From Nymphaea colorata (Eukaryota; Streptophyta; Magnoliopsida; Nymphaeales; Nymphaeaceae), in the NCBI RefSeq assembly GCF_008831285.2, contig NC_045138.2:39423115-39487114 (forward strand): a DNA stretch of 64,000 bases. Reading direction: 5' to 3'. Shown piece by piece: positions 12,207-51,023 of this stretch. Below the pieces are notes generated by a model. It ran no database searches. It was not told where the DNA came from and was given only the letters and a program-made list of their open reading frames with translations. Both the position numbers and the translations under genes were made by a program. Each line of letters starts with the position of its first letter. Positions within the stretch are counted from its first letter, which is position 1.

Positions 12207-12712
12207 CTAGGATCGATCAAGCCGGGCGGAGGGCTTGGTGTTGGCCCACTGGTCGGCGAGCAGAGCCAGGCGCCGAGAAGAGGAGCCCTCCTCAGCGAGC
12301 GCTTGGCTGGCAGCCTCTTTCAGCTCGCCCACTCTCTTCCTCAGCTTCTTCCCGACCTCGCTTTCCATCAGCAGCCTCACCACCCGCTCGACCTCCCCTC
12401 TGTGCACCAGCCCCTTCTCGTAGTCCACGCTCACGCTTATGCCGATCTCATCCGCCAGCATCCGGGCGTTCATTCTCTGCTCCGGGTACAGCGGCCACCC
12501 GATCATGGGCACGCCGTAGACCACGCTCTCCAGGCTCGATTTCCAGCGGCAGTGCGACAGGAACCCGCCGACGGCCTCGTGGCTCAGCACCTTCACCTGC
12601 GGTGGCAGACCAAGAGTTTGGCAAATTCCATGATGGGGATGAGATGGCCCATGCTGGTGCTGGGCATGATGTCGACATGAGGCTTCTCGCTGTTGTGATT
12701 CACCACTTCCAT
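12207..12712 (-). pseudogene. UDP-glycosyltransferase pseudogene (UGT72-like), internal deletion
   Basis: This is the copy-A counterpart of the intact UGT at 29121-30563. The start codon (12712), first ~38 codons and last ~130 codons are recognisable, but the middle is gone. The length is 506 nt against 1443, a net loss of 937 nt. That loss is not a multiple of three, so the frame is also broken, and reading from the original start meets a stop right at the junction. The junction joins the codons after Cys-His-Arg to the second half of the PSPG box, with CCG shared at both ends. The remaining PSPG half has CRWKS where functional copies have CGWNS. Most of the acceptor domain, the catalytic Asp and half of the donor site are absent, so no enzyme is expected. 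The longer minus frame reaching 12761 starts out of register with the true UGT start. Confidence 0.93.
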
Positions 12713-12867
12713 GGCTCCTCTGAAATCCTCGGTAGCCTGCGCAGGCAGATTCAGGAAACAAGAAAAAAAGAGATACAGCTGCAGACTGTACAGATGAAAA
12801 ACAAAAGGAAAGAGAAGGTCGACGTTTGGTGGTGAATGATGGTGGAAAGAGAAAGTCGAGAGGGACT

Positions 12868-12878
12868 ATTTATAGACT
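12868..12878 (-). promoter_or_regulatory. TATA box retained upstream of UGT pseudogene
   Basis: The minus strand reads TCTATAAATAG about 155 nt upstream of the pseudogene start. The position matches the TATA box of the intact copy, so the pseudogene may still be transcribed. Confidence 0.5.
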
Positions 12879-12949
12879 GCATTTCTTATCAGGCAGCCAC
12901 TATAGTGGACAACTCTTCGTCAAACCACCGCAATTCCAACTGCTGGTCG

Positions 12950-13225
12950 TGTTAGTTATAAAGAGATGGGCGGAAATCTTGTACGTGTTCCTTATCAAAT
13001 CGTCCACACCAAAAGATTCTTGTTAATCCCTCAAAATTTGTTTCTATTTCAATCTTATAAGTGAAACCTATATAATAGCTGTAAAGAAAGAATGGAAAAT
13101 AGAATGAAGAAGAATTTTCCCTTTCTCTCGTGGATGTAGGCTTCAAGCCTAACCACGTAATTACTGTCTTTCTTGTTTTTTCCTCTTCTTGCAATCTCTG
13201 TTTTTCCATTACATACTTCTAAACA
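12950..13225 (+). repeat. Copia-type 5' LTR (276 bp)
   Basis: It begins TGTTAG and ends CTTCTAAACA. It contains the CTCTCGTGGATGTAGGCTTC phrase also seen near the end of other LTRs in this window. Compared with the inverted LTR at 13643-13969 it lacks an internal segment of about 45 bp. Confidence 0.8.
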
Positions 13226-13239
13226 TGGTATCAGAGCTC
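13226..13239 (+). other. Primer-binding site for initiator tRNA-Met
   Basis: TGGTATCAGAGCTC directly follows the LTR. This is the usual minus-strand primer site of plant copia elements. Confidence 0.85.
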
Positions 13240-17350: not shown

Positions 17351-19607
17351 CCTTTGCCCCTGCACACTGATCACCAGATCCTTAACATGTTTAAATGCAT
17401 GACGGTTTGAGTTTCTGTGTTTTTGGACCAAGGGCGTGCGTTGAAGCAGCAGCCATGGAGGGGTCTAGTCAAGCTTGACATTCCACGCGAATTGTTAGTG
17501 TGTCCTTCTCAAAGGCCATTCAATTGTTTTTCGCTTATTTATGTGCCCCATTCACTGCAATGGCCTGCACAACCTGTTTAACAGTTTAGTCATTAGAACG
17601 AAGGTGCTTAAGGAATTCTCTTATAGGCAATATTACACTCGTAAACCTTTGGAGTGACCAAAACTCGTGGGATTATAAATAGTACCATTAATTGCGGCTA
17701 ACCTGGCATAAATAGTACCACCGGCCGGACAATACACGAGTCTTTGAGACTGAAAATATTTTAGTTCAGAGACACGAATCGAACTCTTCTGACCTAATTT
17801 TAAAAGAGATTAGATGGACATGATACAGCATGATGTTTCCCATCGCTGAAATTCTTATAATTAGATCTAGTGATTAAAAATGCAAACGAAAACTAAAGAA
17901 ACGATCGATACCAATAGCATGACGGAAATACTTACTCCCAGTTGATGCTAAATTTTCACTTTTGGGGGCACAAAAAATGTTCCGGACATGAATTCCAGGT
18001 CCATCAAACGCTCACCCTCGAGTATACAACTTGCTTCATCATTGAACTTGCAACATTCTCCGCACCATGTTTATCTGGTGGGGCGTGCCAATTCATGACT
18101 AATAAAATATTTGGGTTCTGCCGCACTTTTTGATGTATGAATTTCCAGATTCATAATCATCATTGAAACAAATGAAATAATACACCACGAGCTGATTCAT
18201 GAAGCCCCTGAGTCAATATTAGGAACTTAGAATAGTGCCATGCATTAAAAAGTGAAGCTAAAAACAGAGAAATACAGTCATTATAGATAGGTTTGACACA
18301 AGTTATTTAGTTGATGCATTTATTAAGGACATGATTAGTTTTAGACCCGGCCCTCAAGTTTTTATGTATTTAATAAGGACATGTTAATTTACTGTCATAA
18401 CCAGTTTATTTGATAACTGAAGTGTTGCAAGATCAACTATTTTTTCAACGTCAATAATTCACTTTGTTAAAACTATTGTCATCTTGTTCAAGCACTTTAG
18501 AACGATCATCAAGTTAATCGGATGATTCACATTCTTTTTTTCAAATGCCAATCTGGCGACCCATGTAAAAGTTTCCGATCTTCAATATGAAACAATAGTC
18601 GAAAGCAGGATCCATGAATTGGCTCCATCAGAGAACCTTTTCATAATCTCAAATTTCAGAGACCACATTCGAGAAGGTGGCCGCTTTGTTCGTAGCATGG
18701 TGACAAACCCGGGTTTTGTGATGAAGATGTAAAATGATTAACTATGAACTCAACTTGGGTACGCAACTTTCAATCTACACCCAAACTTCAACCCGGTCGA
18801 ACTTAAATTTAACAGCATGGACAAGACAATTAGATGCTGGTCGAGTTTCAGTTTGAGTTTGAGGTTGGGTTTCAAATTTAATCCTTCGTCCACTTTGACC
18901 TGAATATTCAAAACTCAATTAAGTCAGACTTGGTAATGCATGCCTCGACCAGACCCGGATCAGATTGGAACCAAAACCCTGCTGCTCTTAGGCTAAAATA
19001 GAGCGCTGAAGAAGGAGAAAAATATTGGTATACTGGTCATATGATTCAGACCTTCGAGAGGGGAAAAAAATCCCAAGCGACTCCTGTAGGCAAGTATCCA
19101 TTGCGATTCCGCGTGCAGTTCATATCTGGGCAGTGTAAGGAAGGTCTTACTAAATTGAAGCTGACCACAATCCACATTTTAACATGTCTTTTTTTTACGA
19201 GTGAGCGAAAGGAAAGAAGTATTTCATCCTACTGCCTATAATCCTACCACCCAAATGAAGCACTGGTGGACATAGGATTTTTCTATGAGGGTATCAAATT
19301 ATAGTTTCAAAAGTTCAACTGAGACCAAAATATAATTTTTTAAAGATTTTATATAAGATAAATAAAAACTTTTAAAATTTACATGCAATTTTTCTTTTTT
19401 AATTTTGAAAGAGAAGGCGACCATGGCCATGGCCCATGCATGTCTCCTTGGCTCCATCCTTGCTCCAAGGTATAAAGTATTTTTTTGGTGCTTCGGAGTG
19501 CTGACATGCTTTAACTTGCATGTTGGTGACCTCTGGTTTGCGGCATATGTAGTGTCAGTGTCGTCAATTTTAAAAGCAATCCACATTTATATAGTTATAG
19601 TTCAGTG

Positions 19608-19612
19608 GGGCT
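19608..19612 (+). other. Left target-site duplication of copia element
   Basis: GGGCT immediately precedes the 5' LTR, and GTGCT follows the 3' LTR at 25061-25065. They match at 4 of 5 positions, fitting a 5-bp duplication with one later change. Confidence 0.65.
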
Positions 19613-19952
19613 TGTTGGATCTTCCTATCAAGGAGAAGAGGAGATCACGTTAATCAATTACGACATTCTTGGAAAGAGATGAGGAGATTGCGTCGATCCT
19701 GGACAGAGATTTTTGGAGATATCTCTTTCAAGCTTTTCTGGTTTATCCCTAACGTTTCTCTCCCTCTCATCTTTAGCCGATTGTAAATTGCTGCTATAAA
19801 TATCTCCCTTGTATCTCTGATTGTTTAAAGTTCTGAATAAACAAGAGCTCCTCTCTTCTCTCGTGGATGTAGGCTAACATGCCGAACCACGTATTTTTCT
19901 GTGTGCTGTGATTGATTATGAATGTGGTGTAACAATCACAAAGTTTTCATCA
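19613..19952 (+). repeat. Copia 5' LTR (340 bp)
   Basis: TG...CA ends. A TATA-like CTATAAATATC lies about 180-190 bp in, and CTGAATAAACAAGAG may act as the polyadenylation region. CTCTCGTGGATGTAGGC follows near the end. Confidence 0.93.
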
Positions 19953-19966
19953 TGGTATCAGAGCTC
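19953..19966 (+). other. Primer-binding site (initiator tRNA-Met)
   Basis: TGGTATCAGAGCTC starts immediately after the LTR's terminal CA. Confidence 0.9.
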
Positions 19967-20518
19967 ATCTGAAAAGGGGATTCCGGTGATTTCCTGCAAT
20001 TCTGGCCACCTGAGTTCTTTCCAGTGACCGAACGTGATCTTATCAGAATCACCCATCCCTGTAATGCTCATATGAGCAATTGGAGTTGAATCTGAGCATA
20101 ATCGTGCAAAAATTGAGGACGATTGTGTTGCTGCCAGAAAACAGGGGAAGATCCGGCGCGAGTCTGCCGCTGCAGCGTTGTTCAAAGTGGGAATTATTGC
20201 GCAACGTCTGTTCACGAAGTTGAGAAGCTATCTGTAAGGAGCGTCTGATTATCCAAGTTCTGCTGGTCTTCAGGAAGCTGTCCTGTGACTCTGTTCACAG
20301 GGACTGAATCTTCTAGTTTCCTTTCCTGGTGATTAGAAGGATCTTGACGACCTTCCTGCTCCTCACAACGCTCGCCAGATCGACTAGTCAATTCCTCAGT
20401 GAAAGGCGTCGTATAGGCAAGCTTCAGATTAAAAATCTGATTTTGTGGCAGCCAGCGATAGTTCAGACTTGAATCACATCATACGCATTACATTTCTTCT
20501 CAAATTGTTTTTCCTACC

Positions 20519-22522
20519 ATGGCGACAACTCACTCTGTCGGAGATTCGCCAAACAGCTTTAAGAGTGGGAACCATGACCAAGGTACGATAAAGATTACTA
20601 CTGTTTTCTTGAATGAAACAAATTATCTGAGTTGGGCAAAAGCAGTTCGTTTATTCTTGAGCGGACGTTCAAAGATAGGCTATATTAATGGAAAAATCAT
20701 GGCTCCTCTTCCATCTGATCCCAAATTCGATGAATGGCAATCAGAGAATGACATGGTTATGTCATGGATGATAAATTCCATGGAACCATCAATTGCAAAT
20801 CTGTTTCTATATCAGGAAACAGCCAAAGGCGTATGGGATACTTTGAAAGAAATGTATGGCCAGCAGAACAATTTAGCTCGGGTGTATCAAATACAACTTG
20901 AAATTGCGAATCTGCAGAAAGAAGGTAAACAAACTCATCTCTACTTAAATCAATTGCGTTGTCTCTATGATGAACTACTACAATATCGACCAGCCGCTTC
21001 TGATCCGGAGGTTTACAAGCAGAGATTTGAGGAAGATAAAGTGTTTAAAGTACTCGCAGGACTCGGAACTGACTATGAAAGCCTTAGAAGTCAGATTCTC
21101 ATGACTAAGCCACTGCTGAAGTTTAATGAAGTATGTCAAGCGATCCAGAGGGAGGACGCACGCAGGAAAGTTATGAATGTCACGTCCAAAGATGAGATTA
21201 ATGAAGGGACTCAAGAACGAATGGTGTGTCTTGCTAACGAAGGTAAACATGAAGGAATGGCATACTTCACTCGACCTGAAAAACCCACGTATAAGGTGGA
21301 GCATAGAAACCAGACAAATACAAATACTAAAAATCGCAGCAAGTTGCGGTGTTCGTATTGCAAGAAAGTTGGTCATGCTCGTGAGAAGTGTTGGGAACTT
21401 GTCGGCAAGCCCACCAAGGAGAAAACAATCTCTTCAAATCAGGCAGATCTTGCACACTTTGTTACCAAGGATGACTTAGAAATTTTTTTTCAGCATTTCT
21501 CCAAATCCAACCTCGTCTCAAGTCAACCAGTTGGATCATCTACGGAAGGTAATAACCATGCTTTATTTACTCAAGCAAAGTCTCCTTTATGGGTTATCGA
21601 TTCTGGGGCAACTGATCATATGACCAATGATCCTCTTAAGTTAGTCGATCTTGATAGAGGAAATAAAAAACCAGTGTTTACTGCTGATGGTACCACTATA
21701 GCTGTCACTGGGATTGGAAAAACCAATTTTTTTACAAATCATAAGACATCTAATGTTCTCTATGTGCCAAGAATCTCTACCAATTTAATGTCTGTTAGCA
21801 AAATCACTAATGATTATAACTGTGTGGCGATTTTCTCTCCAAAGGATGTGATTTTTCAGGACTTCCAAACGAAGAAAGTGATTGGTAGGGGTCGAGAGCA
21901 AGATGGTCTATATGTGATGGAGAACTTTGGAGTGAGTTGTTTTACTCGTACAAGCATGAAGAATAAAGAGTACCTCACATGGCACGCTAGACTTGGTCAT
22001 ATTGCTAATCAAAGCTTGAAGACCTTGGTCCCTCATCTCACTCTAGAAGAACATTCTTGTGACGCATGTGAATTCTCTAAGTCTACCAGGCTACCATTTC
22101 ATACCTCTACTGAAAGGTCCACCAAGATATTCGAGTTGGTTCACTCAGACGTATGGGGACCTACTCCTATGGAATCGTATAATGGTTACAGGTACTATGT
22201 GTCATTTGATGATAAAACTCGTATGTCATGGATTTTCTTTCTTAGAAATAAGAGTGAAGTGATTGTTGTATTTGAAGAGTTCTATTATATGGTATTGACT
22301 CAGTATGGGACCAAAATTAAAAATCTTAGGTCTGACAATGGGGGGGAATATGTGAATGATTCCTTTTGCAATTTCATGAGAAAAAATGGTATACAACCTC
22401 AATACACGTGTGCAGGCACTCCACAACAAAATGGAGTTGCAGAGAGAAAAAATCGTCAGCTACTAAATATTGCTAGATCTATCATGATGCATATGCATGT
22501 TCCCCAAAATTTTTTGGTCTGA
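20519..22522 (+). CDS. Copia polyprotein part 1: Gag, protease, integrase
   Basis: This 667-codon frame starts at the ATG in CCATGGCGACA after a ~565-nt leader. The Gag region spans about residues 20-225 (ETNYLSWAKAVRLFLSGRSK at 33-52). The CCHC zinc knuckle is at 278-291 (CSYC...GHAREKC). The aspartic protease motif DSGATDHM is at 361-368. The integrase zinc-binding HHCC residues lie at about H489, H494, C514 and C517. The integrase catalytic triad is D544, D606 and E642, with the D-to-E spacing of 35 residues typical of DD35E. The frame ends shortly after the triad because of a one-base gain in the CCCC/AAAA stretch near 22501-22508; the rest of the polyprotein continues in the next frame. 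One residue also appears to be missing in VSF-DDKTRMSW compared with the usual copia pattern. Confidence 0.93.
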   Translation: MATTHSVGDSPNSFKSGNHDQGTIKITTVFLNETNYLSWAKAVRLFLSGRSKIGYINGKIMAPLPSDPKFDEWQSENDMVMSWMINSMEPSIANLFLYQETAKGVWDTLKEMYGQQNNLARVYQIQLEIANLQKEGKQTHLYLNQLRCLYDELLQYRPAASDPEVYKQRFEEDKVFKVLAGLGTDYESLRSQILMTKPLLKFNEVCQAIQREDARRKVMNVTSKDEINEGTQERMVCLANEGKHEGMAYFTRPEKPTYKVEHRNQTNTNTKNRSKLRCSYCKKVGHAREKCWELVGKPTKEKTISSNQADLAHFVTKDDLEIFFQHFSKSNLVSSQPVGSSTEGNNHALFTQAKSPLWVIDSGATDHMTNDPLKLVDLDRGNKKPVFTADGTTIAVTGIGKTNFFTNHKTSNVLYVPRISTNLMSVSKITNDYNCVAIFSPKDVIFQDFQTKKVIGRGREQDGLYVMENFGVSCFTRTSMKNKEYLTWHARLGHIANQSLKTLVPHLTLEEHSCDACEFSKSTRLPFHTSTERSTKIFELVHSDVWGPTPMESYNGYRYYVSFDDKTRMSWIFFLRNKSEVIVVFEEFYYMVLTQYGTKIKNLRSDNGGEYVNDSFCNFMRKNGIQPQYTCAGTPQQNGVAERKNRQLLNIARSIMMHMHVPQNFLV

Positions 22523-23963
22523 TGCTATTGGTACAGCATGTTATCTTGCCAACCGAATACCAAACTCAAGTGTTGAAAATCAAATTCCTTTGGAACTCCT
22601 ACTGCAGAGGCCTATTTCTATACGACATCTTAAAGTGTTTGGGTGTAAATGCTTCGTTCATATTCAGGAAAAATTTCGAAATAAACTTGAGAAGCGAGCA
22701 ATGAAGTGTATTTTTTTGGGGTATTCCAGCAAGAAAAAGGGCTACAAATGTTATGAGCCAGTTTTGAAAAAATTGTTTGTGACCAGAGATGTCAAATTCT
22801 TTGAACATGAGTCATTCTATGAGAAAGCAAATCAGGGGGAGGCACACGCCCATGGAGATGGAATCATGGCATACAATGATAATATTGTTCTTCCTTTAGT
22901 GGATGTTTTTACCTCGACTTCCAAATCTATTATGGAAAACCAGCCTTCACCCACCAATTCTATCCTTGAACCTATCCAAACTAGTGAAGCTAACCAAGAA
23001 AATCAACTTCTTCGCCGTTCCACTCGTCCTACTAGACCTCCATCTAGACTTAGTGATTTTTATACATACCTATCAACCAACCATGATCATTCTATAGATA
23101 AGTACCTAACATTCGAGACCATGTCTAAACCTTATCGATCCTATATCTTAAACACTTATACTCACCAAGAACCCAAAACCTATGAAGAGGCTAACAAACA
23201 TCCACAATGGAAACAAGCCATGATGGAAGAACTTTCAGCATTAGATAAAAATCAGACTTGGGATTTGGTTCCTCTGCCGAAGGAGAAGAAAACTGTGGGA
23301 TGCAAGTGGGTTTACAAAATAAAATATCACAGTGATGGCACCATAGAACGGTATAAGGCTCGTTTGGTTGCAAAAGGTTTTACTCAAACTGAAGGGATTG
23401 ATTACAATGAAACGTTTGCTCCTGTTGCTAAGATGAACACAGTTAGAACTCTTATATCTGTGGCTTCAAACAAAAGATGGAACCTAACTCAACTAGATGT
23501 TAAGAATGCTTTTTTACATGGAAAACTTGATGAAGAGGTCTACATGGAAGCACCGCAGGGAATATCCAATGAAAAAGGGTACGTATGCAAATTGAAAAAA
23601 GCACTTTATGGTCTGAAACAATCTCCAAGAGCATGGTTTTCTCGACTAAGTGATGCTCTTGTTAGTATTGGTTTTAAGAGAAGTGTTGCAGATTATACTA
23701 TGTTTACATGTATTCGAGATTCAAAAATAACTATTCTACTTGTGTATGTAGATGACATCATTATGACAGGTGATAATGAGGAGTTTATGATTCATGTAAA
23801 AAAATACCTCAACAAACAATTTGAGATCAAGGATCTTGGAAAGTTGAGGTACTTCTTGGGGATAGAAGAAGATAGAAGTTGCTCATTCAGACAAAGGTGT
23901 GTTTCTATGTCAAAGAAAGTACACTTTAGATCTTCTAAAAGAGACAAAGCACTTGGGTGTTAA
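22497..23963 (+). CDS. Copia polyprotein part 2: integrase C-end and reverse transcriptase
   Basis: This open frame (no own start expected; the upstream Met is incidental) continues the polyprotein after the first frame break. It has the integrase C-terminal region (VFGCKCFVHI, KCIFLGYSSKKKGYKCY) and then the copia RT: KWVYKIKYHSDGTIERYKAR, LVAKGFTQTEGIDYNETFAP, LDVKNAFLHGKLDEEVYM and the YVDD active site at residue 417. The frame is lost around 23861-23880, where a 10-bp segment (GATAGAAGAA/GATAGAAGTT) is tandemly duplicated. The last ~30 codons of this frame are therefore out of register. Confidence 0.92.
   Translation: MFPKIFWSDAIGTACYLANRIPNSSVENQIPLELLLQRPISIRHLKVFGCKCFVHIQEKFRNKLEKRAMKCIFLGYSSKKKGYKCYEPVLKKLFVTRDVKFFEHESFYEKANQGEAHAHGDGIMAYNDNIVLPLVDVFTSTSKSIMENQPSPTNSILEPIQTSEANQENQLLRRSTRPTRPPSRLSDFYTYLSTNHDHSIDKYLTFETMSKPYRSYILNTYTHQEPKTYEEANKHPQWKQAMMEELSALDKNQTWDLVPLPKEKKTVGCKWVYKIKYHSDGTIERYKARLVAKGFTQTEGIDYNETFAPVAKMNTVRTLISVASNKRWNLTQLDVKNAFLHGKLDEEVYMEAPQGISNEKGYVCKLKKALYGLKQSPRAWFSRLSDALVSIGFKRSVADYTMFTCIRDSKITILLVYVDDIIMTGDNEEFMIHVKKYLNKQFEIKDLGKLRYFLGIEEDRSCSFRQRCVSMSKKVHFRSSKRDKALGC
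23861..23880 (+). repeat. 10-bp tandem duplication that breaks the RT frame
   Basis: GATAGAAGAA is followed directly by GATAGAAGTT. The shift from the RT frame to the RNase H frame is +1 modulo 3, which a 10-bp gain explains. Confidence 0.75.
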
Positions 23964-24687
23964 AACTGCGGACACACCTCTTGAACAAAATTGCAAGTTA
24001 AGAAAGGACGAAGGAACAGAAGTAAAGAACATCCAAAGCTTTCAGAAACTTGTTGGCAAACTTATATATTTGACAGTAACCAGGCCAGACATTACTCATG
24101 CTGTTAGTACTATAAGCCAGTATATGCATAAGCCAAGATCCACACATGTTGATGCTGCAAATAGAATACTAAAATACTTAAAGGGCTCCCCAGGAAAGGG
24201 CATTCTGATGAAACGTGATCAGCCTATTGATGTGGTAGGCTACTCTGATGCTGATTGGGCTGGCGACCCAAATGATAGAAGGTCTACTTCCGGATTTTGC
24301 ACATTTGTTGGTGGCAACTTAGTTACATGGAAGAGCAAGAAACAATCTGTTGTAGCCCGATCAAGTGCCGAAGCAGAGTATAGAGCTATGGCGGCATGTA
24401 CTTGTGAATTGGTATGGATGAAAGCTATTCTAAAAGACATGAATATTGAAGTAAAAGAGCCAATGAAACTTATGTGCGATAATATGGCAGCTATATACAT
24501 TGGAGCAAATCCTGTCTATCATGAACGCACAAAGCATATTGAAGTTGATTGTCACTTCATTAAAGAAAAAATTCAAGATGGAACAATTCAGACGCCACAT
24601 GTGAAGAGCGAATACCAATTGGCAGATATTTTTACTAAGTCTCTTGGGAAGGAACGACATAGATATATTGTTAACAAGTTGGGGTAG
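23899..24687 (+). CDS. Copia polyprotein part 3: RT thumb and RNase H
   Basis: This frame continues after the 10-bp duplication. It begins inside the RT connection (RKYTLDLLKET, KLVGKLIYLTVTRPDI) and carries the copia RNase H: VGYSDADWAGDPNDRRSTSG, then ARSSAEAEYRAM, then MCDNMAAIYI and HIEVDCHFIKEKI, with the usual acidic residues present. It ends at TAG 24685-24687, 33 nt before the 3' LTR. The codons before about 23880 are not polyprotein sequence. Confidence 0.92.
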   Translation: MFLCQRKYTLDLLKETKHLGVKTADTPLEQNCKLRKDEGTEVKNIQSFQKLVGKLIYLTVTRPDITHAVSTISQYMHKPRSTHVDAANRILKYLKGSPGKGILMKRDQPIDVVGYSDADWAGDPNDRRSTSGFCTFVGGNLVTWKSKKQSVVARSSAEAEYRAMAACTCELVWMKAILKDMNIEVKEPMKLMCDNMAAIYIGANPVYHERTKHIEVDCHFIKEKIQDGTIQTPHVKSEYQLADIFTKSLGKERHRYIVNKLG

Positions 24688-24707
24688 ATTGATATCTGCG
24701 CACCAAC

Positions 24708-24720
24708 TTGAGGGGGAGAT
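24708..24720 (+). other. Polypurine tract
   Basis: TTGAGGGGGAGAT directly precedes the 3' LTR, matching the plus-strand primer site typical of plant copia elements. Confidence 0.9.
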
Positions 24721-25060
24721 TGTTGGATCTTCCTATCAAGGAGAAGAGGAGATCACGTTAATCAATTACGACATTCTTGGAAAGAGATGAGGAGATTGTG
24801 TCGATCATAGACAGAGATTTTTGGAGATATCTCTTTCAAGCTTTTCTGGTTTATCCCTAACGTTTCTCTCCCTCTCATCTTTAGCCGATTGTAAATTGCT
24901 GCTATAAATATCTCCCTTGTATCTCTGATTGTTTAAAGTTCTGAATAAACAAGAGCTCCTCTCTTCTCTCGTGGATGTAGGCTAACATGCCGAACCACGT
25001 ATTTTTCTGTGTGCTGTGATTGATTATGAATGTGGTGTAACAATCACAAAGTTTTCATCA
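24721..25060 (+). repeat. Copia 3' LTR (340 bp)
   Basis: It has the same length as the 5' LTR and differs at about three positions. It is followed by GTGCT, the right target-site copy. Confidence 0.93.
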
Positions 25061-28373: not shown

Positions 28374-28416
<43 letters not shown>

Positions 28417-33975: not shown

Positions 33976-33999
33976 GATTGAACATCGACCATCCATTGA

Positions 34000-35800: not shown

Positions 35801-35908
35801 ATCTAAACAGGAAATACTGTACATTTATGCTTGGATACACTTCTTTGAACTTAGCAAATATTCCAAACCACTGGACTCGAACAACAACAAATCTTATTGT
35901 TCAAATCC

Positions 35909-35973
35909 ATTAGCTACTTTTGGCTCGGCCCGATTGTCGACAAGTTGAGAGATCCGCTGGTGAGAGAACCCCT
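35909..35973 (-). pseudogene. UGT C-terminal relic
   Basis: About 21 codons read GFSHQRISQLVDNRAEPKVA, clearly the end of a UGT like the one ending at 49583 (GLSHQRIAQLVDSWSKGKVA). The adjacent DNA (AATATTCCAAACCA near 35860) also matches the 3' flanks of the intact UGTs. Nothing of the rest of the gene is found to the right. Confidence 0.8.
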
Positions 35974-38828: not shown

Positions 38829-38956
38829 CAAACCAAATTAGACTCAAGCAACAACACAACACAACCAGCCAACAATTTTCCAGCCACACACTATAGCATC
38901 ACTTAGTGCTTACTTAATATTCCAAACCAAATTAGACTCAAGCAACAACACAAACT
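38829..38956. repeat. Direct repeat of about 33 bp next to UGT 3' end
   Basis: AAACCAAATTAGACTCAAGC followed by AACAACACAA occurs near 38830-38860 and again near 38935-38952, flanking about 75 bp. The second copy is just downstream of the UGT stop codon. Confidence 0.7.
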
Positions 38957-38994
38957 GAAACTATGATATCGAAATCGAGATGCAAATAATTGAG

Positions 38995-40425
38995 TCACAA
39001 ACCATTCGCTAACTTTCCCTTGGACCAGTTGTTCACAAGCTGCGCGATCTGCTGGTGAGACGAGCCCTTGTCCGCAAGTGCCTTGGTCACTACCTTGCTC
39101 AGCTCCCTTGCTCTCTTCCTTAGCTTCTCCCCCACCTCCCCATCCATCAGCACACTCACCCACTGAGCCACCTCCTCTCTCAGAACCAGCCCCTTCTCAT
39201 AACTCACACCCACTGCTACTCCCATCTCCTCCACCAACACCCGTGAGTTCATTCTCTGCTCCGCACACAGCGGCCACGCGATCATGGGCACCCCGCGTGC
39301 GATGCTCTCCAGTGTCGAGTTCCAGCCACAGTGTGAGAGGAACCCTCCAATGGCTTCATGGCTCAACACCTTCACCTGCGGCACCCACTGCGGCACCACC
39401 ATCCCCACATCGGCCGTCCTCTTCACGAACCCTTCTGGAAGAAAGCTCGTCACGTCGTCCGCTTGGGTTCCCCCTCCGCCGAAGTATGCCGCATCGGTGA
39501 CGTTGTTCGGCTTCCTCACCACCCAGAGGAATCGATGTCCGCTCGTTTCTAAACCCCATGCGAGCTCTACTAATTGATCCTGCGTCAACGTACACACACT
39601 CCCGAAGCACACGAACAACACGGAGTTTCGTGGCTGCATGTCCAACCACTTCAAGCAATCCTCTCCATCTATCTCCTCATTATTATTCTCATCCTGTTTC
39701 TTGACAAGCGGACCAACAGGGTAGACTGGTGGAATGTTGCCACCATTGTCGCGACCCTGCATCAGTGCTCTGATTGCGTTGGGTTCAAGCTCGTGGACGG
39801 TGTTGATGATGATCCCGGTTGCCTCCTTGTATCGACGGCAATGGTGAAGGTACCACCAGTAGTCAATACCCTGACGGTCTAGCATCGGGTCAACCAGCTC
39901 CGTGCCTCGGAACGGCAGACAGCCGGGGAGCTTGACCTTGTCCTGCAGGTCCTTGTACTCTCCAACAACCTCCTCATGAAGGATGGGCGTGTATAGAAAG
40001 AGAGACAACACTGTGGCGTTGGTGGTGAAGAGGATGTAGGCGGGGAGCTCCAGCTCTGTGGTGACATCTAGTAGGTCTGTGCTTAAGATGTCGAGTATGA
40101 CGGCTGCAATTGGCTGGATCTTGGGGAGGAGGTTTCGCACGGGTTCAACAGAGCGCTTCGTCAAGACAGAGATTCCGGTGACGACCCCAGTGTTGGGCGA
40201 GATGTCGGAATTGTCGACGGGAGGGAGGGAGATGCAATTGATATTGTTGGAATATTCGGACAAGATGGTCATAGCAGAGACGGGGAAGCGACCAGAGGCA
40301 GTGAGGAAGGACACGGTGAGAGAGTGAAGAGAGAGAAGGGTCTTAGCCAGCTCGATCATGGGGTTGAGATGACCGGTGCCGGCACTCGGGATCATGACGA
40401 CATGAGGCTTCTGGTTGTTCTCCAT
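38995..40425 (-). CDS. UDP-glycosyltransferase, UGT72-like (intact, 476 aa)
   Basis: This is an intronless family-1 glucosyltransferase, predicted to use UDP-glucose and a phenolic acceptor in the cytosol. The catalytic His is H19 in SAGTGHL and the partner Asp is D112 in ILDILSTD. PPVYPVGPLV is at 232-241 and the PSPG box at 347-390, with HCGWNS and the final Gln intact. Two departures from its sister at 43537-44967 stand out. The glycine-rich loop before the donor half reads FGSVCTL in place of GSGGTL, and the PSPG box begins WVPQ in place of WAPQ and ends PLCAEQ. The first change lies at a loop that normally faces the sugar donor in this family, so activity or donor binding could be altered. 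It shares its N-terminal pattern and flanks with the next UGT, from which it arose by tandem duplication. Confidence 0.94.
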   Translation of the reverse strand: MENNQKPHVVMIPSAGTGHLNPMIELAKTLLSLHSLTVSFLTASGRFPVSAMTILSEYSNNINCISLPPVDNSDISPNTGVVTGISVLTKRSVEPVRNLLPKIQPIAAVILDILSTDLLDVTTELELPAYILFTTNATVLSLFLYTPILHEEVVGEYKDLQDKVKLPGCLPFRGTELVDPMLDRQGIDYWWYLHHCRRYKEATGIIINTVHELEPNAIRALMQGRDNGGNIPPVYPVGPLVKKQDENNNEEIDGEDCLKWLDMQPRNSVLFVCFGSVCTLTQDQLVELAWGLETSGHRFLWVVRKPNNVTDAAYFGGGGTQADDVTSFLPEGFVKRTADVGMVVPQWVPQVKVLSHEAIGGFLSHCGWNSTLESIARGVPMIAWPLCAEQRMNSRVLVEEMGVAVGVSYEKGLVLREEVAQWVSVLMDGEVGEKLRKRARELSKVVTKALADKGSSHQQIAQLVNNWSKGKLANGL

Positions 40426-40535
40426 CCTACAGGAGGCAAAGAACTTGTGTGCGGAGTTGAATATACAGAATCCTTTCCTCTCTTGAACTCTATTTGATGG
40501 TAGTGCGTTTTGTCCATAGAGATGGGTGAGAGAAA

Positions 40536-40545
40536 GGATTTATAG
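40536..40545 (-). promoter_or_regulatory. TATA box of the 38995-40425 UGT
   Basis: The minus strand reads CTATAAATCC, 111 nt upstream of the start codon. The same sequence and a similar spacing are kept in the sister gene. Confidence 0.65.
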
Positions 40546-41921
40546 GCGGGTTGAGGTGTAAGAAAACCCGAACTTGTTCATGAAAATGTATAACATGTAA
40601 TGTCCCGCTTTACAAAGAACTTATGTAAGGTTTTTTTACGTAGTTGGTTGTTCTTATTCGTTCATTTGAGATAAAAAGAAAAGCTCAGGAAGGGTGAGTT
40701 AGGATACGTCAAAAAGGGCATTGAGTTAGGGTTGGCTCGACCGCCATTGCTAGAAAGCAAAGGTTGAGAATGGTGTCTGGGAACGATAATGGAGGTCGGG
40801 ACCTGCCGGATATTGGAGATTGAGTTGTAAAGTTGAGGTATTTTAGAAACTTTTTATAAAGGTATATACATTTTAAACTTTTTAGACTTTTAAACATTTT
40901 CATCATTTCATTTTTATTCTTTTACATTTTAAACTTTTTAGACTTTTAAACATTTTCATCATTTCATTTTTGTTCTTTTAAAAGTCTCCCTTTTTCTACT
41001 TTTCCCATAACATTTTTATCAATATACATTCATGCACATGGGTATGGAAGCATACTATTTCTTATTAATTGTAGACCAGACAATAATTGTCCTTATGGAA
41101 AGGTGGGCGGAAAGCCATGGAGGCCATAAACGCGTGTAGACCCCTTGCCTTTGGATAGTTACAGGAAAAAAAAAAAAAGAAAAAACCTTGACCAGAGATA
41201 AAGAGTAAAACCCATGCAAGCGCGCTAATGGATCGGTCTTGTGAGTGGAAACAATGAAAGAGGTTTTTGTGGCAAACAAATACTGAACGCAGCACTAACT
41301 TAAGAAGGATGACTATTGACATATACATTGAAGAAATATTTGTTCTAACGATCAAAATGATCTGCTTCCATCTCTTGATTTAACTTGCAAAGGACTGGCG
41401 GGTCACCGGTGTTTTTGTCAAATGGAACCATGCAGTTCATGCAATGGCATGCAGCCGTTCCATTAAGAGTTGTTTTGCAGCAAGAATATTTTTTAGAGTA
41501 TTTCATGAAATTGAAGCATATTCAAGAAGCAAATATATTTTTTATGAATTTAATTTGTTTGAGATTGAGATAGATTCATGAAATACTTATATAATGTTCT
41601 TGTCATCAAATGCCTCTTACAATCTGTTTGGTTGAAGAGAAACAAATGGAAAAGAAATGAAAGAAAAGGAAGAAGTATGTTTGGATGGTGGGAAATGGAA
41701 AGTTTAACAAAAGGTTAAGTGTGTTTAGTTTGGAGGGAATGGAAAGGAGAAAAGAGAATGAAAATGAAAACTCGCTTTTGTTTTCAAGCCCTCCAAAAAT
41801 AAAGAGATTTGGACGGACAGTTGAGGATTCTCTCCAAAAGTCTCACATGCCCAACTACCCATCGTCTTTTCCTTCTAGACCTTCTCTTTGTCGTCTAGTT
41901 AGAGCAATCATTGCTGCTATC

Positions 41922-42262
41922 TCTGAGTATCTTAGTTGCCACCGACATAATATGGCCCCAGTGGGGACCCTTGATGGTCATCATGACAACAGAAGTTCAG
42001 GCCCTTCTGAGTGTCTCAGTTGCCATCGATATAATATAGCCCCAATGAGAACCCTTGATGGTCATCATGACAACAGGAGTTCAGGTCCCTCTAAGTGTCT
42101 CAGTTGCCATCGATATAATATGGCCCCAATGGGGACCCTTGATGGTCATCATGACAACAGGGGTTCAGGCCCCTCTGAGTGTCTCAATTGCCATCGATAT
42201 AATATGGCCCCAAAAAGGACCATTGATGGTCATCATGACAACAGGGGTTCAAGCCCCATGAC
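41922..42262 (+). repeat. 84-bp minisatellite, four units
   Basis: The unit carries TCTCAGTTGCCATCGATA, ATGGCCCCAATGGGGACC and TTGATGGTCATCATGACAAC and recurs every 84 bp. As 84 is a multiple of 3, the array stays open (28 residues per unit, with CHRYNMAP and GHHDNR) inside a 195-codon plus-strand frame at 41685-42272. Unit 1 of the duplication has one diverged copy at 37480-37600, so amplification happened after the duplication. I do not call it a protein gene. Confidence 0.88.
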
Positions 42263-42320
42263 AAGGACCTAACTGCTGCCTCGATGGGATATAATTCGCA
42301 AATTATTGTTAATAAAGGTA

Positions 42321-42628
42321 TGTAACAACATAAGGACTAAATTTTATGGGGTGTTACAATCCACTCTTCTTAAGGCACACTTATCCGTCGTATAGGACTA
42401 CAAGTTCGAGTGTTGAACCGGCTCTGATACCATTATAACGACTCAACCCATTCTCGAACTCGGGCCCCTGGTTCGGTGGATCCCGACACACCTCTCTAGC
42501 AGTTTTAGTTACAATATCAAAAAGATTAAAAACCAAAACAATCATCTCATTAATTACATTCATTTATAAGCCTTTGAAGATTTCTATCAATCTTAAATAT
42601 GAAAATAAACCTGAGATGTGGTGTTACA
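42321..42628 (-). mobile_element. TRIM-like non-autonomous LTR element
   Basis: This 308-bp block interrupts the alignment between duplication units: unit 1 reads directly across at about 37640 (AATGACGTAGGG). It begins TGTAACA and ends TGTTACA. Inside, CCGGCTCTGATACCA (42418-42432) is the complement of a tRNA-Met primer site. It is followed by about 195 bp that would be one terminal repeat, while 42321-42358 looks like the other, mostly deleted. No coding capacity. Target duplication is unclear (GGTA versus AGTA). Confidence 0.6.
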
Positions 42629-43536
42629 AGTAGGGTTTATTTTATCAATTAAATGAAAAGGTATTTTTAAACCTTCGATCTTGGTTAAATTTTCCTTGCA
42701 CATTATTTGTTAAGCATGAGCATGTTTTGTTAGTATGATATGTGAAATGAGCAACAAAGATCTTGCTTGACAATTGTCATGAGTAGTTAGGTGCGGACCC
42801 TGCATAGGATCATTGCATTATGTCTTACACAAATCACACCATGTTAGCTGCAAATATCATGTCAGCAAGAGTGACAAAATTTTAGTGACACTTTGTTTGC
42901 AGCGGTAAAAGGAACAAACATCATAACTCTTTTTTAGTAACAGTTTTTTTTTTTTTTGTCAGGAAAAATTAATGTTTGTTAATGCAGTGGAAAAACGTGA
43001 AAAAATATTAGCCACACAACTTTTACCAACGTTCCTAGAGTAAAAGTTTTTCCAAAATTTTAGTTATTTTTAGTGGCCAATTTCTTGCTTAAGTAAAAGT
43101 CCTTTTCTTTTGTAGTGAAAACAGTTAAGGGGAAAAACTCGGATGAGAAAACATTTATACTCAGTTTGCATTCGAACTTAACCGTTAAGCTTAGATTTTG
43201 TGAGACAATAAGATGCTAAAGCTTTAAAACTTGGTCCACTTCACAAAGAGCTCAAACGCGAAAGATTGCTATTTAGAAACTCATGCTACCATGCCATTAT
43301 CAACTTATTTTCGAAATTGCTTGGTCCCAACAAATCAACTCTTATAAACAAGAAAAGGGTACTGAATTGAAATAGGAAAAGTGGCCTACAACTCCACCAC
43401 CAGCCAGAGGATTCAACGTAGCATTCCAACACATACTATAGCTTCACTTTGAGATCACTTAATGTTCCAAACGAAAGTAGATTCAGGTTACAACGCAAAC
43501 TCAAACTATTCTCTGGAAATCGACATGCAAATTCAG

Positions 43537-44967
43537 TCATAAATCATTTGCTATGTTTCCCTTGGTCCAGATGTCCACAAGCTGTGCGATCCGCTGGTGA
43601 GACAAGCCCTTCCCCACAAGTGCCTTAGTCACCACCTTGCTCAGCTCACTTGCTCTCTTCCTTAACTTCTCCCCCACCTCCCCATCCATCAGCACCCTCA
43701 CCGCCTGAGCCACCTCCTCCCTCCGCACCAGCCCCTTCTCATAACTCACACCCACTGCTACACCCATCTCCTCCACCAACATCCGCGAGTTCATTTTCTG
43801 CTCCGCAAACAGCGGCCACGCGATCATGGGCACCCCGCGAGCGATGCTCTCCAGTGTTGAGTTCCAGCCGCAGTGTGAGAGGAACCCTCCAATGGCTTCA
43901 TGGCTCAACACCTTAACCTGCGGCGCCCATTCCGGCACCACCATCCCCACATCTGCCATACTCTTCACGAACCCTTCTGGAAGAAACCTTGTCACATCGT
44001 CCGCCTGGGTTCCCCCTTGGCCGAAGTAGCCAGCATGGACGACATTGTGCGGCTTCTTCACCACCCAGAGGAATCGATGTCCGCTCGTTTCTAGCCCCCA
44101 AGCGAGCTCTACTAATTGCTCCTGCGTCAATGTACCCCCACTCCCCATGCACACGAACAACACGGAGTTTCGTGGCTGCATGTCCAACCACTTCAAGCAA
44201 TCCTCTACATTGATCTCCTTATTATTATCTTCATCCTGTATCTTGACAAGCGGACCAACAGGGTAGACTGGGGGAAAGTTGCCACCATTGTCGCGACCTT
44301 GCATCAATGCGCTGATTGCGTTGGGTTCAAGCTCGTCGACGGTGTTGATGATGATCCCGGTTGCCTCCTTGTATCGACGGCAATGGTGAAGGTACCACTC
44401 GTATTCAATATCCTGACGGTCTTGCATCGGGTGTACGAGCTCTGTGCCCCGGAAGGGCAGACAGCCCGGGATTTTGACCGTGTCCTGCAGGTCCTTGTAC
44501 TCTCCAACAAGCTCCTCGTGGAGGATGGGCGTGTATAGAAAGAGAGACAACGCTGTGGCGTTCGAGGTGAAGAGGATGTAGACGGGGAGCTCAAGCTCTG
44601 TGGCGACATCTAGTAGGTCTGTGCAGAACATGTCGAGTATGAAGGCTGCAATTGGCTGGATCTTGGGTAGGAAGTTTCGCAAGGGTTCAACGGAGCGCTT
44701 CGTCAAGACAGAGATTCCGGTGACGACCCCAGTGTTCGGCGAGATGTCGGAATTGTTGACGGGAGGGAGGGAGATGCAATTGACATTGTTGGAATACTCG
44801 GACAATATGGTGATTGCAGAGGCGGGGAAGTGACCAGAGACCGTGAGGAAGGACACGGTGAGAGAGTGAAGAGAGAGAAGGGTCTTAGCCAGCTCGATCA
44901 TGGGGTTGAGATGGCCGGTGCCGGCACTCGGGATCATGACGACATGAGGCTTCTGGTTGTTCTCCAT
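43537..44967 (-). CDS. UDP-glycosyltransferase, UGT72-like (intact, 476 aa)
   Basis: This is the sister of the 38995-40425 gene, of the same length and without introns. The catalytic His is H19 (SAGTGHL), the partner Asp D112 (ILDMFCTD), and PPVYPVGPLV is kept. The PSPG box spans 347-390 with WAPQ, HCGWNS and terminal Gln, all in the form expected of a working UDP-glucose enzyme. The glycine-rich loop reads MGSGGTL, so the Gly-Gly pair that the sister has lost is present here. Differences from the sister are spread through the N-terminal half, which forms the acceptor pocket, so the two may have different acceptors. The acceptor is unknown; phenolic compounds are inferred from the UGT72-like pattern. 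Confidence 0.95.
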   Translation of the reverse strand: MENNQKPHVVMIPSAGTGHLNPMIELAKTLLSLHSLTVSFLTVSGHFPASAITILSEYSNNVNCISLPPVNNSDISPNTGVVTGISVLTKRSVEPLRNFLPKIQPIAAFILDMFCTDLLDVATELELPVYILFTSNATALSLFLYTPILHEELVGEYKDLQDTVKIPGCLPFRGTELVHPMQDRQDIEYEWYLHHCRRYKEATGIIINTVDELEPNAISALMQGRDNGGNFPPVYPVGPLVKIQDEDNNKEINVEDCLKWLDMQPRNSVLFVCMGSGGTLTQEQLVELAWGLETSGHRFLWVVKKPHNVVHAGYFGQGGTQADDVTRFLPEGFVKSMADVGMVVPEWAPQVKVLSHEAIGGFLSHCGWNSTLESIARGVPMIAWPLFAEQKMNSRMLVEEMGVAVGVSYEKGLVRREEVAQAVRVLMDGEVGEKLRKRASELSKVVTKALVGKGLSHQRIAQLVDIWTKGNIANDL

Positions 44968-45088
44968 CCCACAGGAGACAAAGAACTTACGTCGCGGAGA
45001 TGAATATACAGCAAGTAAAACAGTATCCTTTCCTCTTGAGCTCTATTTGATGGTAGTGCGTTTTGTTCGTATACATAGTTGAGAGAAG

Positions 45089-45098
45089 GGATTTATAG
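45089..45098 (-). promoter_or_regulatory. TATA box of the 43537-44967 UGT
   Basis: The minus strand reads CTATAAATCC, 122 nt upstream of the start codon. It is identical to the sister gene's TATA sequence and sits in the conserved GGGATTTATAGGCGGGTTGA context. Confidence 0.65.
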
Positions 45099-45245
45099 GC
45101 GGGTTGAGGTTGTACATGATATCGAAGAGAACCCGAACATGTTCATGGAAATGTATAACTGGTACTATCCAGATAGATTTAAAAAATTTAGTCTCAAATT
45201 TAATTGGGGACTTATGAAAGGTTTTTTTAACTGGTTGGTTGTTTT

Positions 45246-46080: not shown

Positions 46081-46726
46081 ATAACTAAAATGCCCTTATT
46101 GATTAAACCCAAAACCCTCCTGGAGTCCAAAAAAACCTTCTCCAAATTTAATTAGGTTACCAAAACTGCCCCTTTAATAAAACATGGGAACATGTCTTCC
46201 CAGGTTGACAGCATAACATGAAATTTGTCCTCGCAATTGTCAACGTTCACCGGCATATTTTTGCGGCTTCATTTCTTACTTTGCCGGGATCAACCAGTTC
46301 CAGGGAACAGTTGGCACGCATAGTGAGGAAGCAACATATGAATATCACTAGAAATTGGCCCCAAAAAAAAAAAAAAATTGATTAAAAGCAAAAGTGTAAA
46401 AAATTAACTTGGAGTTTCATAGTCAAATTCAATGGTGGCATAGACAGCCAGAAGTTCGACTCTAGGATACGTAAAACTATACTTGATGGGGAAGTTTTTA
46501 TTAATATGTATTGGAATTTTGACAAGTAAATCGAAGGGAAGATATGTGATAAATGTATAGAACTCAAGCCTCTCCTGCAGTTGTTGCCAACGGATGACAT
46601 CCTATAATTTTGTCATCAGGTTACTTGTGATCTATTTATTTATCGTCAACTGGGTGAGAACAGAAAGCAGCTCATGCAGATAATGCAAGATAAAGCACCA
46701 GGTCTCAAATGTTTCATGTGTGTACT
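46081..46726. other. AT-rich intergenic, no gene seen
   Basis: A poly-A run lies near 46365. Short frames have no recognisable domain. Confidence 0.45.
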
Positions 46727-46868
46727 CGACCGATCTCCTCATTATTATTTTCATCCTGTATCTTGACAAGGGGACCAACAGGGTAGACTGGTGGAATGTT
46801 GCCGCCATTGTCCCGACCCTGCATTATTACGTTGGGCTCAAGCTCGTCGACGGCGTTGATCATGATCC
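46727..46868 (-). pseudogene. UGT internal fragment
   Basis: The minus strand encodes about 45 residues matching positions ~207-252 of the 476-aa UGTs: VDELEPN, then MQGRDNGGNIPPVYPVGPLV, then QDENNNEEI, with three codons missing after ELEPN. The fragment stops abruptly at GATCCC, where truncated LTR sequence begins. Confidence 0.88.
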
Positions 46869-47675
46869 CACACAAATTGACAGTTCTTTATTTCAAGGAA
46901 AAGTTACAAGACACTTTTTGTCTTTACTAACAGCACATTAATTCCCTGATTTGTGCATTGTTTTTAACCCTTCGCTAATTACATCATTACATCCACCATA
47001 TTGACTAGAGATGCACTTCCAACATGACGAGATTCTTATCATGTTTGATCTCATAATTATAAATACCTGCCATATTAATCATCATATGTACCCTTCACAT
47101 TCCCCCTCAAACTGGATGGCGGAACGGAAATTCCAGTTTGTTGTAGATTTTTGCAAAAGCAAATCATCCTATCACATAGGCGGTGATTTGGCGAGCCAAA
47201 TTTTCCTTCATAAAAATTTTCTTCAACAGGATGAAGTCCTCGCTTTGGTGAAGAAAGCAACAATCTCTTTGCTAGTCTGCATGCCATCTTTGGTCTTCCA
47301 TCTTCCTGAACGAGCATTTTCTCTGATACCATGTTCAGAAAAAGTAAAAAAAGGAAAGATAAAAGAAGACGAGGGAAAGACTACTTTCATTCATCCTTCA
47401 TGGTTTTACACCATGAAAAGCTATTATTGGCTTTAGTTTCACATCGTGCGATCTCTTTCATTTATAAACCCACACAAATAGATAGCTTCACTAACAGCAC
47501 ATTAATTCTCTGATTTGTGCGCTGTCTTTAATCGTTCTCTATGTGCATCACTATCATGCTCTTTGCTACCATGTTGGCTGCTGATATATTATGTCCACGA
47601 TAATTAAATTTTTAGCATATGTGATCTCATGATTTTTGTTGTCTTCCATATTAATCATGATATTTATACTTTACA
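46869..47675 (-). mobile_element. Internally deleted copia-type LTR element
   Basis: Read on the minus strand it has a 5' LTR (47675-47332, 344 bp), a tRNA-Met primer site (complement of CTCTGATACCA, 47321-47331), only about 232 bp of internal DNA, a polypurine tract (complement of TTCCCCCTCAAAC, 47100-47112), and a 3' LTR (47099-46869). The 3' LTR is truncated at its outer end. The two LTRs align over CTAACAGCACATTAATTC and CATATTAATCAT but have clearly diverged, so the element is not young. There is no coding capacity. Confidence 0.8.
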
Positions 47676-47813
47676 GGATCGTCCTTTCCAGCTACGGCCG
47701 TTTGAGACGCCCATTCGTCGTCTTCCTCTGTCGTTTACCAAAGCACTCTGAGCTCATGATCTATAAATATTGATTACTCCATCGTCATACACTGTCTCGA
47801 AACGTCACTCCTA

Positions 47814-48010
47814 ATGCACCCACGTATACGCCCCCACTGGCTCCAAGAGGCCAGGGAAGAAGAACCTGATCAAGCCGCCGGTAGGTGGAGCCGTTCTTCC
47901 CCCTTGCCACGACGGCCGATGGTTTTCAATCTCCTCCTCACCTCCTTCCCCTCCTCTTCTTCCGTCAGCAGCGTCGCCGCCTCCTCCACCTCCCCAATCC
48001 GCACCACCTT
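47814..48010 (-). pseudogene. Possible UGT C-terminal remnant (GC-rich)
   Basis: A GC-rich island in AT-rich DNA. One minus-strand frame reads VVRIGEVEEAATLLTEEEEG followed by KEVRRRLKTI. That resembles the UGT C-terminal helix pattern (an EEV...LM..EEG.E.R.R motif), but with no PSPG box attached. It is not from the same subgroup as the neighbouring UGTs if real. Low-complexity acidic sequence could mimic this. Confidence 0.35.
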
Positions 48011-49255
48011 TCCCCTACTTTTTGACATTTATTTTATTAACTAAGCTTTAAACTTTTAATTTAGTCGTCGTTAATGACTAAAATGCTTTTAATTCACACT
48101 GAAAAAAACTTTTTGTAAAAATAAAAATAAAAAACAAAAAAAGTAAAAAGACCACAAAGAACATTTTTTTAAATTATAAAAATACCCATTGCTCTTTTAC
48201 TGCTCAAAACGAATTCAAATATAGTTGTACGTGATTCTTAATTGTTTATGAATGGATTCCTGGTTCTGTCCTTTGGAAAGACCAAGAGAACAATATCTCC
48301 TAATATGCAGGTCCACTTTTTCTCTCTGGCGAGTAGAAAGCAGCATATTCTTTCCGCACGTAGAAAACAGGTTATTCTCTCGCTATTAACATAACAAGTT
48401 TAATTTATATTTTAATATGGCAAATACTTTCTCATCTCATTTCATGGGGCTTGGATCAAGAGAATGTGAAATGATGCAGACTGAAAACTCCAACAATTAA
48501 TTGTAGAAAACCACTTGATCGTAATTGGTTTCTTACGCGTGGGCTGATAATAAATTAACGAAAGCTTGAAATAAAAGGTGATGTATGCCTAATTAATTTC
48601 TGTTCTTATCGTGATGGTTGGCTTCTAAATTCTTCATTTAATAGGATGTGTGATTTTTAGGCATAGCGACAAGGGCAGGGAAGTGTTTTAAGCAATAGAA
48701 CATTTTTTCAAAAAAAAAAAGACAAATAAAAAAGGTGTATTTCGTACTACTTAATGAAAAAAAAATGAGAAATTAAAAAAAAAGTGTATTTCGTATTAGT
48801 AATGTTTAAAATCATCCCAGTATAAGGGGCTAATGAGTTCAATGTACGGGGTATATTTGACAAGCATTTGGCACCAAGTTTTAGAATTTCGAGTGTTTGG
48901 GTGTCAACAAAACCGAGAACGATGAAAACTTAATCTTGTCAAAACCTGGCTTTATAAAAGGATTTATGTCATTAGTGGGTGCAACCGTCAACGGCTTCTA
49001 GGTCTCGAGTTCGAATTGCCAGGACGTTCGTTTGAGCAATCACATTTGTAGACAGGCTTATTCTTATTGTTCTTTTTACTTTATACTATTAAATGTCCTA
49101 GGCATTACCGAGGGCCTCCGAACCTTTCAAGAATGAAGGGCCGATTTGGGCACTAATATATAAATAAATAAATGGTTAACCAGAAGGCTAATATGTCAAC
49201 GCGCGTATTAATAATTTTTGTTTTCCATTGTGCACTTCGGTGAGTTTTTGTGAGG
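48011..49255. other. AT-rich intergenic, no gene seen
   Basis: A-rich runs near 48110-48180 and 48705-48785. Near-identical phrases AAAAGTGTATTTCGTA recur at about 48735 and 48781. Confidence 0.45.
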
Positions 49256-49582
49256 AAAATTAAAACTTGGTCGACTACACGAAGAGCTCAAACGCGGAAG
49301 ATTGCTATTTAGAAACTCATCCTACCATACCATTATCAACTTATTCTTTTGCTATGCTCCCAACATTGCGATTCTTCATGCAACTCTTATGAACAACAAA
49401 AGGGTACTGAATTGAACTAGGAAAAGAGGCCTACAACTCCACCACAAGCCAGATGATTCGACGTAGCCTTCCAACACATAGTTTAGCTTCACTTTGAACT
49501 TACTTAATATTCCAAACCAAAGTAGATTCAGGTTGAAACGCAAACTCAAACCATTATGTGGAAATCGACATGCAAATTGAGT
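49256..49582. repeat. 3' flank shared with the 43537-44967 UGT
   Basis: Matches 43220-43536 over most of its length (for example AGAGCTCAAACGCG, AAGATTGCTATTTAGAAACTC). This shows that the frameshifted gene arose from the same duplication series. Confidence 0.8.
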
Positions 49583-51023
49583 CTAAACATTCGCTACTTT
49601 TCCTTTGGACCAACTGTCCACAAGCTGGGCGATGCGCTGGTGAGACAAGCCCTTTCCCGCAAGTGCCTTAGCCACCACCTTGCTCAGCTCACTTGCTCTC
49701 TTCCTTAGCTTCTCCCCCACCTCCCCATCCATCAGCACCCTCACCGCCTGACCCACCTCCTCTCTCAGCACCAGCCCCTTCTCATAACTCACACCCACTG
49801 CTACTCCCATCTCCTCCACCAACATCCGTGAGTTCATTCTCTGCTCTGCATACAGCGGCCACGCGATCATGGGCACCCCGCGTGCGATGCTCTCCAGTGT
49901 CGAGTTCCAGCCACAGTGTGAGAGGAACCCTCCAATGGCTTCATGGCTCAACACCTTCACCTGCGGCGCCCATTCCGGCAGCACCATCCCCACGTCCGCC
50001 GTCCTCTTCACGAACCCTTCTGGAAGAAAGCTCGTTACGTCGTCCTCTTTGTTTCTCGCCGTGCCGAAGAAGGCAGCATCGGCGACGCTGTACGGCTTCC
50101 TCGCCACCCAGAGGAATCGATGCCCGCTCCGTTCTAGCCCCCAAGCGAGCTCTGTTAACTGCTTCTGCATCAATGTTCCCCCACTCCCCAAGCACACGAA
50201 CAAAACAGAGCCTCGTGGCTGCTGGTCCAACCATTTCAAGCAATTATCTTGACCGATCTCCTCTTTCTCGCTTTCATCGACCATCTTCACGAGGGGGCCA
50301 ACAGGGTAGAGGGGTGGAATGTTGTCACCATTTTCGCGACCCTGCATTGGTGCCCTGATTGCATTGGGCTCAAGCTCGGCGACGGTGTTGATCATGATAC
50401 CGGTTGCCTCCCTGTATCTACGGCAATGGTGAAGGTACCACCAGTAGTCAACATCCTGACGGACGGTCTAGCATCGGGTCTACCAGCTCTGTGCCTCGGA
50501 AGGGCAGACAGCCGGGGAGCTTCACCTCGTCCTTCAGGTGCTTGTACTCTCCTACGATATCCTCGTGAAGGATGGGCGTGTGTAGAAAGAGAGACAGCGC
50601 CGTGGCGTTCGAGGTGAAGAGGATGTAGGCGGGGATCTCAAGCTCTGCGGCGACATCGAGTAGGTCTGTGCAGAAGACGTCGAGTATGAAGGCTGTAATT
50701 GGCTGGATCTTGGGGAGGAGGTCCCGCAGGCGTTGGACGGAGCGCCTCATGATGGTTGAGATGGCGGTGAGCACCTTTCCGTTGGTGGGGAGGTCGGAAG
50801 TGTCGACGGCAGGGAGGGAGATACAGTTGATATTGTTGGAAAGCTCGGACAGGTTGGTGATGGAAGAAGCGGGGAACTGGCCGGAGACCGTGAAGAAGGA
50901 AACGGTGAGAGAGTGGCAAGAGAGAAGGGTTTTAGCGAGCTCTATCATGGGGTTGAGATGACCGATGCCGGCGCTCGGGACCATGACGACGTGGGGCTCC
51001 TCCCTGTTGTGTAGGATCTTCAT
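49583..51023 (-). pseudogene. UGT72-like gene broken by one 4-nt frameshift
   Basis: Apart from one lesion this is a complete UGT. The N-terminal part (start 51023, chosen because the Met precedes EEPHVVMVPSAGIGHL with catalytic His at H22) runs about 187 codons. The C-terminal part (from ~50460 to 49583) carries PPLYPVGPLV, GSGGTL and a full PSPG box with WAPQ, HCGWNS and terminal Gln. At 50457-50467 the sequence has GACGGACGG where the sisters have GACGG, a 4-nt tandem gain that shifts the frame and stops it at 50448. The total length less 4 nt fits a 478-residue family member. No other lesion is visible, so the loss is very recent, is one allele, or is an assembly error. An upstream Met at 51143 would add a 40-residue extension and is not favoured. 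Confidence 0.88.

Follow-up and report, generated by a model that had tools for sequence, protein, structure and literature searches.

Genes, pseudogenes and relics of the array

The window analysed here, a 64,000-nucleotide stretch of Nymphaea colorata chromosome 1 (39.42-39.49 Mb), holds nine UGT (family-1 glycosyltransferase) loci, all on the minus strand. In support of this assignment, two SSR primers published for N. colorata chromosomes 2 and 3 (PMC9601493) each had a single exact match in the genome, on C2 and C3 respectively, against none for the reversed control. Three are intact single-exon genes, two are broken genes and four are relics, and they follow one another as U1, U2, R1, R2, U3, U4, R3, R4 and U5, from the end of the U1 stop codon (12207) to the ATG of U5 (51023). 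The intact genes were found as ORFs, and U1, U5 and the relics by tblastn and a nucleotide profile; in the control for the profile, Markov-shuffled windows (n=10) gave zero matches at E<=10. The ORF list, tblastn and the profile search confirmed the nine loci and the coordinates proposed in a first-pass annotation of this DNA. An Rfam search gave zero matches, and Pfam searches of the neighbouring ORFs returned copia domains only.

The three intact UGT72-type genes are U2 (29121..30563, ATG at 30563; 480 aa), U3 (38995..40425; 476 aa) and U4 (43537..44967; 476 aa), each identified by its ORF, by Pfam and in the tree, and U2 and U4 also by a structure match. The Pfam UDPGT domain (PF00201) scored 73-75 bits in all three against a gathering score of 19.5, which places them in GT1. 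They retain the catalytic His in GHL and the Asp in DxxxTD, and, as in plant UGTs, the 44-residue PSPG box is complete, with HCGWNS and the final Q. The genes form two subgroups, U2 and the 476-aa type, with 57% amino acid identity between them. dN/dS was 0.40 for U3/U4 and ~0.3 for U2 vs U3/U4; a value near 0.4 denotes moderate constraint, and decay may be under way in one of the "live" genes.

U1 (12207..12712), found by tblastn and aligned to U2, is a U2-type pseudogene with a broken frame. Compared to U2, it has lost 937 bp internally (codons about 39-349), with a 3-bp microhomology at the deletion join (CCG common), and its PSPG motif has changed from HCGWNS to HCRWKS. Identity between U1 and U2 in their 3' part may stem from conversion but is no proof of it, since the 6 synonymous differences are not clearly below the number expected from the flanks. 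U5 (49583..51023), found by tblastn and alignment to its relatives, is a frameshifted pseudogene: it holds CCGTCCGT at the site where the relatives have CCGT, a 4-bp tandem duplication of CCGT that shifts the frame near codon 184, and is otherwise without a stop. A transposon as the breaker of U1 or U5 was rejected on the nature of these two lesions.

The four relics were all detected by the profile and by alignment, and R3 also by tblastn. R1 (~33889..33992), a relic of the first 98 nt and nearest to U2, is the weakest, with a profile match at 33912-33969 (E 0.001); 72 of 96 aligned bases agree with the first 98 nt of U2, and none of 100 shuffles did as well. R2 (~35902..36020) is a relic of a C-terminal end of the U3/U4/U5 type. 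R3 (~46701..46887) derives from the middle of a gene (codons ~198-252) and is 91% identical to U3 (132/145, gap-free), and R4 (~47841..48025) derives from a C-terminal part. Given their order on the minus strand, neither R1/R2 nor R3/R4 can be the two halves of one gene, and the relics thus derive from separate copies or rearrangements.

Family placement

Among solved structures, both U2 (E 5e-146) and U4 (E 2e-129) matched UGT72B1, a hydroquinone glucosyltransferase, best. In the tree, the array comes out as a single clade (bootstrap 93) next to UGT72B1 and related eudicot enzymes, and the array together with the UGT72 references is split from 22 other N. colorata UGTs and the other group E references with a support of 100; these UGT72 references are UGT72B1 and its PDB relatives, not UGT72C/D/E. 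The IQ-TREE result agrees with FastTree, with gene C8:3346 left out as a long branch. The UGT72 affinity that had been proposed earlier is therefore upheld by both structure matches and tree, and a placement in unrelated UGT families, on which it would have fallen, was not found.

Like the array, Arabidopsis UGT72B1 (PDB 2vce) and its eudicot relatives (5nlm, 8chd, 8yp7 and 6jel), which lie on the array's side of the split, are single-exon GT1 enzymes with the His/Asp pair and the PSPG box. Identity to UGT72B1 is 51% for U2 and 45% for U3 and U4, above the ~40% expected of family members, although identity alone is not decisive for UGT72, since C1:25808 also reaches 44%; at 51% at most, the array genes fall short of the ~60% usual within the UGT72B subfamily. 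A whole-genome search gave no other locus with more than 42% identity to U4 over its full length, and the array thus appears to be the sole UGT72B1-like locus found in the N. colorata genome.

UGT72 enzymes use UDP-glucose to glycosylate monolignols, flavonoids and small phenols (PMC8945231). From their sequences, U2, U3 and U4 are predicted to be expressed UDP-glucose-dependent phenol, flavonoid or monolignol O-glucosyltransferases; since phylogeny and substrate are uncorrelated in UGT72 (PMC8945231), the step to phenolic substrates, which the first-pass annotation had also taken, keeps its predictive status. A search of the open-access literature found no paper on Nymphaea UGT72 genes.

Segmental duplications, repeats and relative ages

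Self-blastn revealed two segmental duplications. Duplication A consists of copy 1 (6456..12929), which holds U1, and copy 2 (17351..30770), which holds U2 and a copia insert; its divergence varies by segment from ~0.02 to 0.2. Within it, 9183-10092 differs by only 1-3% between the copies, while adjacent stretches reach 5-20%, and this segment is possibly an exchange tract or conserved non-coding DNA. Duplication B consists of unit 1 (about 36569..40605), with U3, and unit 2 (about 40814..45170), with U4. Synonymous divergence is 0.17 for U3/U4, 0.28-0.29 for U3 or U4 vs U5, and 0.83-1.03 for U2 vs the others. The latter range is close to the Ks peak of 0.9 for the water-lily whole-genome duplication (PMC7015852), yet the copies are local, and an old tandem duplication explains this divergence more simply. 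The claim of at least two separate tandem duplications, old and recent, was thus borne out by two real diverged duplications, with a dS of ~1.0 between the subgroups and 0.17 within the 476-aa pair.

The insert in duplication A copy 2 is an intergenic Ty1/copia LTR element (19613..25068, plus strand), recognized by Pfam domains (gag, integrase and reverse transcriptase) and LTR comparison. Its LTRs are 98.9% identical (K2P 0.012), and it is flanked by GGGCT/GTGCT, an imperfect target-site duplication. Since the LTRs are nearly identical and the element interrupts the intergenic DNA of copy 2, it was inserted after duplication A. A fragment of an older copia element occupies 14.3-16.0 kb of the window. 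The description of the array as cut by transposons accordingly holds for the intergenic DNA but not for the genes U1 and U5, which were broken by the deletion with CCG and the CCGT duplication.

Several other repeats were observed. A 297-bp dispersed repeat at 42333-42629, found at dozens of sites genome-wide and often in 2-3 copies ~267 bp apart, is inserted in duplication B unit 2 and absent from unit 1. Tandem arrays lie between U3 and U4 (41921-42257, 84-bp unit x 4) and upstream of U4 (45765-46007, 28-bp unit x 8.7). Between R1 and R2, a dispersed repeat of ~830 bp (34197-35025) has relatives on several chromosomes. The segment 35183-35312 shows ~77% identity to sequence on many small contigs and may be an old plastid insertion, as the contig sequence resembles plastid ycf2 by eye; Pfam on that contig sequence did not confirm the ycf2 reading. 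The segment 48376-48756 is 86% identical to a single other site, C8:3164282-3164669, where a long ORF was not found.

Mosaic sequence in U3, U4 and U5 and turnover of the array

Sites shared by two of the three copies U3, U4 and U5 were counted in the order U3+U4 / U3+U5 / U4+U5 (pairs 34/35/45). Positions 1-990 of the CDS gave 131/38/35, which groups U3 with U4, and positions 991-1431 gave 9/15/15. The 3' flank gave 36/9/57, which groups U4 with U5, and farther 3' (+1750) the U3+U4 grouping returned (14/0/1). The contrast of U3+U4 and U4+U5 sites between CDS 1-990 and the 3' flank was significant (Fisher p = 2e-10), as was that between the first and last parts of the CDS (Fisher p = 2e-6). 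At fourfold sites, the last third of the CDS shows low synonymous divergence from U2 as well, so the signal there may be partly regional, and the 3' flank is the stronger evidence. On the U4 side, the counts place the U4/U5 exchange tract at ~43224..43720 (minus strand), covering the 3' end of the CDS and the 3' flank. By these patterns U3, U4 and U5 are mosaics, which suggests ectopic gene conversion with the broken gene U5 taking part. The birth-and-death by tandem duplication described in the first-pass annotation stands, but the sequence exchange among these copies had been missed.

The mosaic could also stem from unequal crossing-over that produced chimeric copies at the time of duplication, so that later conversion is not needed. 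Tandem same-strand repeats favour unequal exchange, and the order of R1/R2 and R3/R4 does not fit single genes. However, the U3/U4 match resumes far 3', where duplication B extends to 36569/40814, and the U4/U5-like stretch is thereby bounded on both sides, which fits gene conversion; moreover, the 3'-flank K2P is lower for U4/U5 (0.13) than for U3/U4 (0.22). We consider the crossing-over origin unlikely and infer conversion as the process of exchange. That dead and live copies exchange sequence, and that the live UGT72 genes of this early-diverging angiosperm can draw on U5 as a reservoir of variants for their donor-binding third and 3' regulatory flank, is a tentative extension that we regard as quite improbable.

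If the U5 frameshift were a sequencing error, U5 would be a fourth live gene; the CCGT duplication is its sole coding lesion, and its branch carries 12 N and 7 S substitutions, with no clear loss of constraint in the coding part. PacBio errors do not, however, typically take the form of a clean 4-bp tandem duplication outside homopolymers. In addition, ~200 bp of upstream DNA is common within U1/U2 and within U3/U4, where homology stops beyond, with a TATA-like box at -162/-161 (U1/U2) and -119/-130 (U3/U4), but the region upstream of U5 is not homologous to the one at U3/U4, and its 320 bp next to the gene contain nothing TATA-like. An error is thus very unlikely, and for a pseudogene U5 the coding constraint not clearly lost fits a recent death, while the missing upstream DNA and TATA-like match suggest that promoter loss may have come on top of frame loss. 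An artefactual origin of the copies in the assembly, as uncollapsed haplotypes, is extremely improbable: the source is a 2019 PacBio/Hi-C assembly and divergence within duplication A drops to 2-3% in short tracts, but most copy pairs are 5-20% apart, their lesions are distinct, one copy carries a copia element, the window is without N and the array lies at a single genomic place.

With its observed gene structures, lesions, duplications, tree position and mosaic signal, and with intact genes, pseudogenes and relics in tandem on one strand after several duplications, the locus is read with high confidence as a birth-and-death array of UGT72-type UDP-sugar-dependent glycosyltransferases with probable ectopic conversion among U3, U4 and U5. 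One UGT72 ancestor would have given rise to the two subgroups (U2; U3/U4/U5) through an old local duplication, and later duplications would have added copies. Copies would then have died by the microhomology-flanked deletion (U1), by 4-bp slippage duplication (U5) or by older decay (R1-R4), and ectopic gene conversion would have altered U3, U4 and U5 in the 3' third and in the flank beyond it.

The array is ordinary tandem birth-and-death turnover in a known enzyme family, a textbook case. It seems to contain every UGT72B1-like gene of this ANA-grade angiosperm, so that a single small region can be used to ask which phenol-glucosylating roles are older than the divergence from other flowering plants. 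U5, with its single lesion in the coding part, is a candidate for a copy-number or null polymorphism. Tandem runs of same-family UGT genes, some with internal stops, also exist elsewhere in N. colorata (C1:25.7 Mb, C11:6.0 Mb and C2:24 Mb), but the tree assigns them to other UGT lineages. Two UGT loci, C2:24122078-24123487 and C2:24138661-24140070, have identical scores and match ranges; they may reflect a very recent duplication or one introduced by the assembly.
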